Source: Candidatus Brocadia carolinensis
GTDB taxonomy: Bacteria > Planctomycetota > Brocadiia > Brocadiales > Brocadiaceae
Assembly: GCA_002009475.1 (NCBI GenBank)
Contig: AYTS01000168.1
Span: 1-64,000 of the forward strand
Direction: 5' to 3'
Length of the DNA: 64,000 nucleotides
Shown: positions 1 through 4,747 of the stretch, one piece after another
Numbering within the stretch: the first letter of the stretch is position 1
Layout: each line of letters opens with the position of its first letter
Notes under the pieces: generated by a model
What the model was told of the DNA's origin: nothing
Seen by the model: the letters and a program-made list of their open reading frames with translations, nothing else
Databases searched by the model: none
Position numbers and translations under genes: made by a program

Positions 1-45
1 ATCTCCCGCTTTTTCAATGGAGAGTTGGTTGCTGTTTTGTTGCGC

Positions 46-275
46 TATAGTATTACCGTGTAAAAACTTCTTTTTTTTGTAAGTTTTTTTGCAACCCTAT
101 CTACCCCTTATCAGGAGGTACAGATTGTTTATGAGAGGAAGATTGCTTCGCTTCGCTCGCAATGACAACGCACAACATATCATTAAAGCATAGCCTGTGT
201 CATTGCGAGGGGTCTTTTCCGAAGCAATCTCCCGCTTTCACAACGGAGAATTTGGTTGCGGCTTTGCTGCGCTAT
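46..275 (+). repeat. MITE-like dispersed repeat, copy A
   Basis: About 230 bp without a credible ORF. It begins at a TATAG-type end followed by an AT-rich hairpin segment (AACTTC, T-run, GTAAGTT), continues with divergent arms containing GATTGCTTCG and CATTGCGAG, and ends in GCGGCTTTGCTGCGCTAT. The same modules in the same order recur at 38938-39189 (direct), and at 53253-53477 and 60144-60379 (inverted). Bases 1-45 resemble the tail of a further copy, so the window opens inside a repeat array. The rest of the 565-bp gene-free stretch shows nothing else I recognise. Confidence 0.85.
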
Positions 276-565
276 GGTATATTACGTTTGCTGACTACTT
301 AATATAAATCTTTTCCGGCTCGTTCTGGTTTGGTTTTGCCGTGTTCTTTTTTTCTCTTTGTAGTAATTGCATCATAATGTATCATTATTACTTATTGCGT
401 TGTATTACCTCTTCAACTTAACACCCGTGGAATGCAGGGGGGGGGTTGTTTCCCTTACTTCATGGGCTTCGATTGCGGCGTAGCCGCACCAGGAACTCTG
501 CATCTGCATTCTAAAAAATACTTGTGAACCATTAGCTGCCGGTACCAAAACAAGCAGGCATAATC

Positions 566-2862
566 ATGAACAAAACCAGTCAGGAAATAATCAGTTACCT
601 CAAATCCAGTATCCCGCTATTTGCAGGATTTACGGAGGAACTGCTGGGCAAACTCGTGAACAGTTCACGTGTCATGTCGTTCGAGCCAAACGAGGCCATC
701 GTTCATTACGGCGCGGAGCTACGCACTTCGGCGTGATCCTGTCCGGTACGGTAACGGCGTCAGTGGTTGCCGACGGCGCCACCCGGCTTGAGCTGGGACG
801 GATCGAGGCGGGTAGTACGTTTGGCGAACTGGCATTAATGACGGGTGAGAAGACGCTGGCTGAACTCATTGCCGTGACCCGCTGCGAGGTGTTGCTCATC
901 CCGGTCTCGGTGTTTCAATCGGTCATTGTCACCGAACCGCAGGCCATACAGCACATCTCACGGACCATTTCCGAACGGTTCAAGACACTGGCAGCCGATC
1001 CGGCGAAAGCCGCTGCGGCGCTCCGGCAAGGCGATGACCCATACGGTTTCAATCTTAAGGGCGAACGGCCGGAACACATTCTCGTGGTCAACTGCGGTTC
1101 ATCATCGCTGAAATATACCTTTTACGACACCGAGGACGATTCCCGGCACGTGCGCGGCCAGATCGAACGGATAGGGCTGGACGGCACACACCATGTTCAT
1201 CGCGGATCAAAGGGAGAAGTCACGCGCGAGTTGCCCAAATCCGGATTCGCTGAGGCATTGGCAGCGATGGTGGAGTCATTGCGTGGCGAACCTGAAGCGA
1301 GCATCGTTGCACATCGTGTGGTACACGGCGGGGAGAGATTTACTGAGGCAACGCTCATTACGGATGACGTGCTCGCGCAGCTCGATGCGCTGAGTCCGCT
1401 TGCGCCGTTGCACAACCCTGCCAATATTGCCGGCATCCGTGAGATGAGACGGTTATTACCTGCCGTACCGCACGTAGCGGTATTTGATACGGCCTTTCAT
1501 CACACGCTGCCGTCGTATGCATACCTGTACGGCTTGCCGTACGAGTTTTACGAAAAGCAGGGCGTGCGACGGTACGGTTTCCATGGCATGTCACACTCGT
1601 ACGTCTGCCTCCGTGCAGCGCAGTTCCTCGGGCGGCGGCCAAACGAACTCGAAATCGTGAGCTGTCACCTTGGCAATGGTTCCTCGTTGTGCGCCGTGGA
1701 CCATGGGCGTTCGATGGACACCACAATGGGATTCACGCCGGCTGAAGGGCTGATTATGGGGACGCGCTGCGGCGATGTGGATGCGGGTGTGATCACCTTC
1801 CTCGAAAGAACAGCGGGTCTGACCGTTTCGCAGATAGATGAACTGATCAATAAGAAGAGTGGTCTGCTTGGGTTGTCTGGTATTTCAAGCGACATGCGCG
1901 AAATCCTCAAGGCTGCCGAGACCGGCGAGTCGCGTGCGTTAGTAGCACTGAAGACTTACTGTTATCGGATCCGCAAATATATAGGCGCATATGTCGCCGC
2001 CATGGGCGGACTGGATGCCGTGGTCTTTACCGGAGGCGTCGGACAGGGCAGCGACATGGTGCGTGCGCTTGCCTTACAGGGGTTGGATTGCATGGGCATC
2101 CGTCTCGATGAACAACTCAACCGCGAAGCGCGCGGGTTTGATGAAGTATGCCGCGTTTCAACAACCGACTCGAAGGTAACGGTGCTGGTCGTACCGACCG
2201 ACGAGGAACGGATGATGGCGCGCGAGGCATTGCGGGCATTGAACAGGTCGTACATCACGCACACACTCAAAACGCAGCGACAGGAACCGATTCTGGTCGA
2301 AGTGTCAGCCCATCACATCCATCTCACCCAGGAACATGCTGAGGCATTGTTTGGCAAGGGGCATCAGCTCACACCTCGCAGCGACCTTTCGCAGCCTGGT
2401 CAGTTCGCCTGTAAAGAGCAAGTCACTATCGTTGGGCCGAAAGGCCGCATTGAACGCGTCCGCGTGCTCGGACCCGTTCGCAAATATACTCAGGTCGAAA
2501 TCGCGATGACCGAACAATTCAAGCTCGGCGTTCATCCCCCGATTCGTGAGAGCGGTGATATTAAGGACACGCCTGGCTGCACGCTTGAAGGCACGGCCGG
2601 CAGCGTGAAACTAGAGCGAGGCGTCATCTGCGCCTGGCGACACATCCATATGACACCTGATGATGCACTCCGTTATGGCGTACGCGACAAGTCGGTCGTG
2701 AGCGTGCGCGTGGCAGGCGACCGTGAGTTGGAATTTGGCGACGTGCTGGTGCGGGTTTCACCCAGTTTCCGTCTGGCAATGCACCTTGATACCGATGAAG
2801 CCAATGCCGCCAACGTCCAGACCGGAGCTCAGGGATTTATTGCAGGAATCCAAAACCAATGA
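566..2862 (+). CDS. CNB-like domain / acetate kinase / PduL phosphotransacylase fusion (frameshifted)
   Basis: The restored protein is about 765 residues. Residues 1-140 form a cyclic-nucleotide-binding-like fold (FGELALMTGEK), but the conserved Arg-x-Ala of the phosphate cassette is replaced by TLAEL, so nucleotide binding is doubtful. Residues 170-555 are acetate kinase: NCGSSSLK phosphate motif, GFHGMSH, HLGNGSS, MGTRCGDVD and FTGGVGQG. Residues 571-765 are a PduL-type phosphotransacylase with the metal-binding histidine motifs HHIHL and RHIHM. Together the two enzymes interconvert acetyl-CoA, acetyl phosphate and acetate with ATP, so one chain carries the whole Pta-Ack route. The ATG at 566 opens a frame that stops at 734; the remainder lies in the frame of GTG 733. 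One extra base near 721-725 restores RHFGV and joins them. The gene is clearly GC-richer than its neighbours, which suggests transfer. Domain assignments are firm; regulation by the first domain is inference. Confidence 0.9.
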
Positions 2863-3196
2863 AGAAAAGAAGCTTCATGAAAGGTACAAATCCGTAGAGA
2901 CACGGCAGATATCCTGTTTATCGTTGCCGTATGCCTGAGTAAGGAAAGACGAAGGCAGATTTCCGCATTTCAACTGCCCTGTCAACCTTCTGCTGAAGTA
3001 TTACCAGTTAATCAGGCTGCCTTCGGCAACGATTTTAAGCGCCTCTCCAGGGGGGAGAATTTTTGCTTAAAATTCCTTAACGGAACATTTGTTTGTTTTC
3101 TGCAGGCATGTGCATGAGGTTTCCCTACACGGACAGGGCAATGTTTCCACGAAACGAGAGAGGAACTCAATCTGTTGAGGGCACTTGATAGTCGTC
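2863..3196. other. Gene-free stretch between convergent genes
   Basis: These 334 bp lie between the fusion gene and the convergent yidD gene. I see no credible ORF, RNA gene or strong hairpin with a U-tract. Presumably it carries the 3' ends of both transcripts. Confidence 0.5.
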
Positions 3197-3406
3197 CTAT
3201 TTTACCGGGTCATATCCGGAACTGCCAAACGGATGGCATCTCAATACACGCCACACGCCAAGACACATACCCCACAAGACACCCTTCTTTTGTATCGCAT
3301 CGATCATATATTGGGAACAGGTAGGCTCATGACGGCATGAAGGACGCAAGAGGGGCGAGACAATAAACTGATAGGCCTGAATGAGTTTAATGATGATGCG
3401 CTTCAT
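3197..3406 (-). CDS. yidD: YidD, membrane protein insertion efficiency factor
   Basis: A 69-residue protein of the YidD family, a small membrane-associated factor thought to help YidC insert proteins into the inner membrane. The family cores are visible: an amphipathic N-terminus (KLIQAYQFIVSPLL), the cysteine motif CRHEPTCSQY, and the C-terminal CHPFGSSGYDPV. The frame is open further upstream, but the methionine at 3406 gives the normal family length and start, so I chose it. It overlaps the end of rnpA by 20 bases, the classic rnpA-yidD arrangement. Confidence 0.93.
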   Translation of the reverse strand: MKRIIIKLIQAYQFIVSPLLRPSCRHEPTCSQYMIDAIQKKGVLWGMCLGVWRVLRCHPFGSSGYDPVK

Positions 3407-3758
3407 GGACAAAGGCTTCGTTAATTTTGAGGAGTAATTTCTGAAATCCCGTTTCAATATCCGCCCGTTTCAGATCGGATGAAAACGGATGACGCGGAAT
3501 GGCAATCATGTCGACGTGCACTGCAAGTAAATGTTTATTTAACCGATAGACCTCTCTCAGTAGACGTTTGGCGCGATTGCGCCGTACCGCATTTCCTACC
3601 TTCTTGCTTACTACCAGCCCCAAACGGGAATACGGAAGCCGGTTGACCACCACATAGAGAACGACCTTTGCATCTTTAAATACCTTCCCGTCCTGAAAAA
3701 CCCTTTCAAATTCCTTTTTTAAAGTCAGATGTTCAGCTTTCGTAAATCGGAAACTCAT
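3387..3758 (-). CDS. rnpA: Ribonuclease P protein component
   Basis: A 123-residue RnpA, the protein subunit that assists the RNase P ribozyme in trimming tRNA 5' leaders. The diagnostic RNR motif is present in GNAVRRNRAKRLLREVYR (around residues 55-70), preceded by RLGLVVSKK. The length is normal. It overlaps yidD downstream. The usual upstream neighbour rpmH (ribosomal protein L34) is absent: the bases between this start and the next gene do not encode it. The C-terminus ends in a His-rich tail (EAHHH). Confidence 0.95.
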   Translation of the reverse strand: MSFRFTKAEHLTLKKEFERVFQDGKVFKDAKVVLYVVVNRLPYSRLGLVVSKKVGNAVRRNRAKRLLREVYRLNKHLLAVHVDMIAIPRHPFSSDLKRADIETGFQKLLLKINEAFVHEAHHH

Positions 3759-3862
3759 AAGACATGTTTTCAGTAAAATTCATTTGTTGTGAGCATCTTG
3801 AATATAGTCATGTGTACCTTAGCAAAAGAACAGAACGAAGTCAATGGGTTCTCAGGCAGGAT

Positions 3863-4747
3863 TCAAAGACATCCTGAGAGCTTTCTGAGTTCATCGGACA
3901 AAGGCAACGGCTTGAAACCCAATGAAAATGCCTTTGTGCTGTCAAGTGAGACGTCCGGCGGTCTTGGCGCTGCCATCATCAAATCTTTTTGCCTGGTTGG
4001 TATAAGCCTGGCGCTAGAAATGTTAAGGATATTCATCAGCAGCTTGCCAAACTCATACCGGGAAACACGCTCCCTGCCGCCTATATGAACTAATCCATGC
4101 ACTTTTTCAAGAGACAGAAATATTCCGGCTACTGCGGCGGTTACGCTTACTGGAGTTCTGAATTCATCAATAAAGAGACGCAATTCCTGACCTTTGCTCA
4201 TCACCTCTATCATGGGCTGAATGAAACTACTCGAGCCAGGTCCTGGAATGCCAAACATCAAAGACAAGCGGCAAATAGTCGTCATGGGGTGACGCTTCAT
4301 CATTCCCTCCTCTGCCAACACCTTCTGTTCACCGTAAACACTGACCGGACAGACCGTATCCCCTTCACGATAAGGGGCGTTCAAGCCATTGAAAACCAGG
4401 TCAGTCGAAGTAAAAACACCGGGGATTCGATAGTCTGCACAAAGACCAGCAAGATTGACTGAGGCATCCACATTAATTTTCCGGGATTCAACCCGATGAG
4501 TTTGGCAAAAATTCGGATCAGATTCCGCTGCGGTATGAATTACGGCATCAGGACGTATCTCCTGAAATATCTTCTTCACCGCCTCAAAATCCGTCAAATC
4601 AATTTTTACAAAATTGGCACCTGCTATATTTCTCTGATGAGAAAAAGCCGTTCCGGTAATTTTCCATGTTTGCTTTGCCGCCTGGCAGACATGCCATCCC
4701 AAAAAACCAGAAGCGCCCGTAACAAGCAATTTCTTTGTAGAGGTCAT
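3863..4747 (-). CDS. RmlD-like NAD-dependent sugar epimerase/reductase
   Basis: A 294-residue extended short-chain dehydrogenase. The N-terminal nucleotide-binding motif is TGASGFLG (residues 10-17), and the catalytic YxxxK is YGEQK (around 138). The DLVFNG and CRLSLMFGIP segments match dTDP-4-dehydrorhamnose reductase (RmlD) relatives, which reduce 4-keto nucleotide sugars for surface polysaccharides. There are no other rhamnose genes nearby, so the exact substrate is unknown. It stands alone between rnpA and the ABC-F gene, all on the minus strand, with about 100 bp on each side. Confidence 0.8.
   Translation of the reverse strand: MTSTKKLLVTGASGFLGWHVCQAAKQTWKITGTAFSHQRNIAGANFVKIDLTDFEAVKKIFQEIRPDAVIHTAAESDPNFCQTHRVESRKINVDASVNLAGLCADYRIPGVFTSTDLVFNGLNAPYREGDTVCPVSVYGEQKVLAEEGMMKRHPMTTICRLSLMFGIPGPGSSSFIQPMIEVMSKGQELRLFIDEFRTPVSVTAAVAGIFLSLEKVHGLVHIGGRERVSRYEFGKLLMNILNISSARLIPTRQKDLMMAAPRPPDVSLDSTKAFSLGFKPLPLSDELRKLSGCL

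Follow-up and report, generated by a model that had tools for sequence, protein, structure and literature searches.

A cyclic-nucleotide-binding-like domain, acetate kinase and PduL joined in one conserved protein that is encoded among glycogen and phosphoketolase genes in Brocadiaceae

The gene at positions 566–2862 of the window, the 64,000-nucleotide stretch of Candidatus Brocadia carolinensis DNA analysed here, belongs to a conserved group in which a cyclic-nucleotide-binding (CNB)-like domain, acetate kinase (AckA) and the phosphotransacylase PduL are joined in a single chain. The product is probably (at roughly 0.62) a bifunctional AckA/PduL enzyme placed at the acetyl-phosphate node, with phosphoketolase (Xfp) as its main supplier and a regulatory N-terminus of CNB fold, and it is from sequence, models and gene context that we infer its activities, direction of flux, channelling and regulation. 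An AckA-PduL fusion had already been noted by Erbilgin et al. in 2016, with a proposal of channelling (PMC4784909), and CNB-AckA-PduL is a real, conserved and apparently undescribed variant of it. The literature searched, with most subscription journals outside its scope, yielded no description of a protein combining the CNB domain, acetate kinase and PduL, nor of phosphoketolase in anammox bacteria or of its link with a CNB-bearing fusion.

The 64.6-kb contig, at whose start the gene lies, is one of 209 making up a draft genome of 3.73 Mb from the anammox genus Brocadia. The frame opened by the ATG at 566 codes for MNKTSQEIISYLKSSIPLFAGFTEELLGKLVNSSRVMSFEPNEAIVHYGAE and then runs out of register to the TGA at 734–736, because one base is missing near 713–718, within GGCGC-GGAGCT, when the DNA is aligned with that of relatives. 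The frame of 709 codons that follows is 91% identical at the protein level to its Brocadia pituitae counterpart (L002). The earlier note had described one polypeptide at 566–2862; its three domains are indeed found there in order by Pfam, but the frame is broken as read. The restored 765-residue sequence it proposed does represent the ancestral or intended protein, since intact single frames of 764–765 codons are present in B. pituitae and four other Brocadiaceae (L003, L083, L085 and L086). The break is private to this assembly, the five other Brocadiaceae being intact, and the dN/dS of 0.09 between the window copy and that of B. pituitae, with no sign of decay, indicates a sequencing or assembly error or a very recent event. 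A real pseudogene in Candidatus Brocadia carolinensis, to which the one-base deletion in the CNB coding part would point, is unlikely in view of this low dN/dS, of 2.1 kb free of any further lesion, and of the position of the gene near a contig end in a draft of many contigs. Programmed frameshifting at 713–718 was ruled out, as the relatives stay in frame without it, and two separate genes divided by a real stop were ruled out by the five intact Brocadiaceae genes together with 14 other intact loci. The frameshifted 17-mer had no match in a viral-contig scan, Rfam gave no match in window positions 1–4000, and promoter and terminator scans returned matches at chance level. The coordinates of the features are compiled in Table 1.

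Table 1. Features of the gene in the window, and associated genes at other loci
Feature	Location	Strand	Remarks
5' part of CNB-like domain, original frame	566–736	+	stops at TGA 734–736; 86% identity to L002 residues 1–51
One-base deletion site relative to five intact Brocadiaceae homologues	713–718	+	DNA alignment
709-aa open frame: rest of CNB-like domain, acetate kinase, PduL	733–2862	+	
Rest of CNB-like domain	733–1020	+	beta-roll, cassette FGELALMTGEKTLAELIA without phosphate Arg, C-helices
Acetate kinase (AckA), PF00871	1078–2223	+	catalytic N, R, H, D, H, R, E present
PduL phosphotransacylase, PF06130	2296–2817	+	both Zn sites present (HxH, Glu; HxH, His)
1096-residue RpiB-transaldolase-PGI fusion	L003:1111–4398; L002:940–4227; G000 contig C12:1467–4754		
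LOG/SLOG-type gene	L003:4618–5460; L113:9994–10713; L098:6542–6817; L117:307–1026		

The 14 further intact three-domain loci (L004–L009, L012, L098–L102, L104 and L105) encode proteins about 49–74% identical to that of B. pituitae and come from metagenome-assembled and other genomes labelled as Verrucomicrobiota, other Planctomycetota, Pseudomonadota and Bacteroidota, where single labels of metagenome-assembled genomes may be wrong. The number of independent assemblies rules out a fusion created by assembly, and homologues are thus not always encoded as separate genes, the finding by which the earlier note would have given up its reading; the intact three-domain form occurs in several phyla. 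In a tree of 52 fusions the three-domain proteins fall on one side of a weakly supported branch (53/77), and the mix of phyla within their cluster suggests that the three-domain gene was transferred horizontally. The two-domain protein L103 adjoins the base of this cluster. It was considered as one half of a split pair of CNB and AckA-PduL genes (genome G316), but the CNB gene on contig C333 is simply truncated by the end of the contig, and L103 is genuinely a relative with two domains. One planctomycete genome (G163) carries, in addition to its three-domain gene, a second PduL in a 260-residue frame (G163:C1:4338290–4338820).

Each domain is assigned with high scores. Pfam places cNMP_binding, Acetate_kinase and PTAC in this order on the window, and NCBIfam calls ackA and a phosphate propanoyltransferase. 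The cNMP_binding match (PF00027) has an E-value of 8e-10 on the shortened window frame and 2e-17 on the intact B. pituitae protein; on the window, Acetate_kinase is matched at 5e-143 and PTAC/PduL at 2e-79. The AckA scores exceed the curated cut-offs (477 bits against 22 for PF00871, 472 against 293 for TIGR00016), as does that of PduL (266 bits against 25 for PF06130). The catalytic residues of acetate kinase, which we take to be N7, R91, H123, D148, H180, R241 and E384 in M. thermophila numbering, are together with F179 all found in the window and unchanged across 33 fusions, and N211, kept in 29 of the 33, is the sole mapped catalytic residue that varies. For PduL, the residues named as binding metal or phosphate are H48, H50, R103, E109, H157, H159 and H204 (PMC4784909); the six Zn ligands among them (His48, His50, Glu109, His157, His159 and His204) and Arg103 are found in the window and in 33/33 fusions. 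Every mapped active-site residue is therefore present in the window, which bears out the intact AckA and PduL motifs reported at first reading. An AlphaFold model of the B. pituitae protein (mean pLDDT 84) superimposes on solved acetate kinases with TMt values of 0.87–0.90 for the best matches, and on the R. palustris PduL (5cuo) at 1.2–1.3 Å with TMt values of 0.94–0.95, and it also matches CNB domains. At a pTM of 0.65 the relative placement of the domains is uncertain, and for this reason no conclusion is drawn on the channelling distance.

The protein differs from known systems in the way these parts are combined. The two-domain AckA-PduL proteins of about 600 residues likewise have AckA followed by PduL in one chain with all active-site residues and no encapsulation peptide, are about 45–52% identical to the three-domain form and fall in the same tree, but they lack the CNB domain and in this survey occur mainly in Saprospirales/Lewinella and Myxococcota. 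The N-terminal encapsulation peptide of microcompartment-associated PduL is likewise not found in the fusion, where PduL follows AckA via a helix and a short linker; PduLs fused to Ack are stated to have no such peptide (PMC4784909). Separate Pta and AckA enzymes, as in E. coli and Methanosarcina, catalyse the same pair of reactions, and the AckA domain of the fusion is about 45–49% identical to the solved Methanosarcina and Thermotoga acetate kinases, whereas its phosphotransacylase is PduL, which is unrelated to Pta, in one chain that also bears the CNB domain. This genome holds no AckA or PduL besides those of the fusion, and it lacks Pta.

In Brocadiaceae the gene sits in an island of glycogen and pentose-phosphate genes. 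Upstream lie a transketolase, a 1096-residue protein made up of RpiB, transaldolase and phosphoglucose isomerase (PGI), and a LOG-like gene. On the other side, downstream, follow GlgX, a phosphoglycerate-mutase-like gene, GlgP, and PGI-like and aldolase-like genes, the last two labels being our own reading of the sequences. Xfp is encoded in the same island, about 3–12 kb away, in five of seven Brocadiaceae; in B. pituitae it lies about 215 kb from the gene, and in this genome on another contig. The genes for the RpiB-transaldolase-PGI fusion and the LOG-like protein are found here at the end of contig C12, in an orientation that fits C12 adjoining the window contig. On the minus strand of the window, positions 3197–3758 hold yidD-like and rnpA-like genes where other Brocadiaceae have glgX, so the island has been rearranged here on its downstream side. 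The RpiB-transaldolase-PGI protein combines three sugar-phosphate enzymes in a single chain, is conserved in Brocadiaceae and is encoded next to the AckA-PduL gene. Xfp also adjoins the gene at loci L007 and L098, and the glycogen phosphorylase GlgP adjoins it at L113; no Xfp was found in the short flanks of the non-anammox carriers L004, L008, L009, L012, L099–L102 and L112.

Full-length Xfp is present in 7/7 Brocadiaceae genomes that have the gene and in 1/26 that do not (33 genomes; Fisher p 2e-6, uncorrected for kinship among non-independent genomes of one family). The single genome with Xfp and no fusion (G015) has a stand-alone AckA. From the gene neighbourhood we infer that acetyl phosphate is supplied by phosphoketolase and that acetyl-CoA need not be the main input, unlike the picture in the earlier note. 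The same combination of Xfp forming acetyl phosphate and AckA forming ATP makes up the phosphoketolase-AckA module known as the bifid shunt, and the genes for Xfp, transketolase, transaldolase, RpiB and PGI stand together with the fusion gene; here, however, AckA is fused to PduL and a CNB domain, and use of the pathway is read from gene content. In genome G020, which has the fusion, a broken stand-alone acetate kinase with four stops (G020:C1:729164–729934, L122) lies immediately beside a second phosphoketolase, which suggests that an older Xfp-AckA pair was replaced.

The same neighbourhoods bear on two other directions of flux. The protein might house the classical fermentative Pta-AckA route, with acetyl-CoA from pyruvate converted by PduL to acetyl phosphate and by AckA to ATP and acetate, with channelling between the sites and an incidental linkage to Xfp. 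Pathway logic and a suggestion in the literature (PMC4784909) are in keeping with this, as are the pyruvate kinase and LDH genes next to the gene in L005, the pyruvate kinase in L006 and L010, and the lack of Xfp near any of 69 two-domain loci (flanks up to 6 kb); we regard it as possible but doubtful, given the strong co-occurrence with Xfp in Brocadiaceae and the situation in Jettenia ecosi. This species has a natural CNB-AckA protein (L011:5833–7518) whose frame closes cleanly after AckA, and no PduL was found anywhere in its genome; having kept AckA and lost PduL is what is expected of the Xfp route, because AckA alone completes it. In excerpts of a published account of J. ecosi, this region is a 40-kb glycolytic segment that contains an acetate kinase and is absent in J. 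caeni, and the fusion goes unmentioned in those excerpts (PMC6828613). The loss of PduL in Jettenia also tells against acetate assimilation, in which AckA would activate acetate with ATP and PduL would pass it to acetyl-CoA for biomass or organic-acid oxidation, since PduL is needed for that route. Both steps are reversible and anammox bacteria use acetate, for which the AMP-forming ACS of Kuenenia has been studied, yet the neighbouring genes are those of glycogen breakdown and the pentose-phosphate pathway, and assimilation appears quite improbable.

The CNB domain taken alone is predicted to have an ordinary CNB fold (model pLDDT 89) with matches to CNB structures, and its dN/dS, mostly 0.1–0.15 against about 0.09 for the gene overall, shows that it is under purifying selection. 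In the phosphate-binding cassette (PKA RI-alpha numbering), all 19 three-domain proteins retain Glu200, whereas Arg209, the residue that grips the cyclic phosphate, is replaced by Thr, Val, Met, Leu or Ser in all of them, which confirms the missing Arg remarked on before, and the position of Thr212, usually Ser/Thr, is Asp or Glu in 19/19. Among control CNB domains from other proteins of the same order, nine of 20 such regions recovered by a simple tblastn, Arg is present in 6/9 and an acid at position 212 in 0/9. The invariant acid and the absence of Arg make cAMP an unlikely ligand on sequence grounds, and the gating by cAMP or c-di-GMP that had been proposed is not borne out. A true switch for cAMP or another cyclic nucleotide is accordingly very improbable when set against the control domains, even with a confidently predicted CNB fold, the conserved cassette Glu and the precedent of an Arg-mutated mammalian RI-alpha that still responds to cAMP with only a 5-fold loss (PMC6440977). 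The domain would rather sense something other than cAMP, or be structural. In trypanosome PKA, CNB domains without the Arg can bind nucleosides (PMC6440977, PMC10959531), and kinetoplastid PKA regulatory subunits, which resemble the fusion in lacking the cassette Arg, are by a small margin the top Foldseek matches of the CNB model. They have a diagnostic Glu at Ala202, however, where the fusion keeps Ala (15 of 19) or Ser (4 of 19) and has its acid at the Thr212 position instead, and a nucleoside site of kinetoplastid type was therefore ruled out. The fold-search matches also include a mycobacterial cAMP-binding acyltransferase (CNB-GNAT, PDB 4orf), which similarly has an N-terminal CNB domain on an enzyme of acetyl metabolism, although the enzyme is a different one and the CNB domain of the fusion lacks the cAMP-binding Arg. 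In three lineages the three-domain gene has a nucleotide-related gene of LOG/SLOG type nearby (at L098 just a fragment of one), which might make or sense a CNB ligand.

For the preferred reading, a bifunctional enzyme fed by phosphoketolase, the sequence of events would be as follows. Xfp would cleave fructose-6-phosphate or xylulose-5-phosphate derived from glycogen to give acetyl phosphate, which the AckA domain would use with ADP to form acetate and ATP, and which the PduL domain would interconvert with acetyl-CoA in the direction the cell needs. The fusion would hold these two competing outlets of a labile intermediate close together and in fixed ratio, and the CNB domain would most likely modulate activity or oligomerisation, through a ligand other than cAMP or without one. 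That its neighbours are often genes of glycogen metabolism and phosphoketolase suggests that the enzyme is a regulated switch controlling the use of stored sugar. A bolder version, which we hold only tentatively and think rather unlikely, is that the CNB variant shared across the clade responds to a metabolite, perhaps a nucleoside or a sugar-phosphate with some relation to the neighbouring LOG/SLOG-like gene, and directly governs what share of the phosphoketolase-derived acetyl phosphate goes to ATP and what share to acetyl-CoA; if true, this would be an allosteric branch-point enzyme of acetyl phosphate that lets anammox bacteria live on stored glycogen.

Besides carrying energy, acetyl phosphate acts as a signal by acetylating and phosphorylating proteins, and one protein making, consuming and possibly sensing at this node would gather its control compactly in one place. 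The CNB variant offers a defined natural set for asking what CNB domains without the Arg bind. Anammox bacteria are usually treated as autotrophs, and the island suggests that their genes encode a path by which glycogen, via phosphoketolase, yields ATP through substrate-level phosphorylation.
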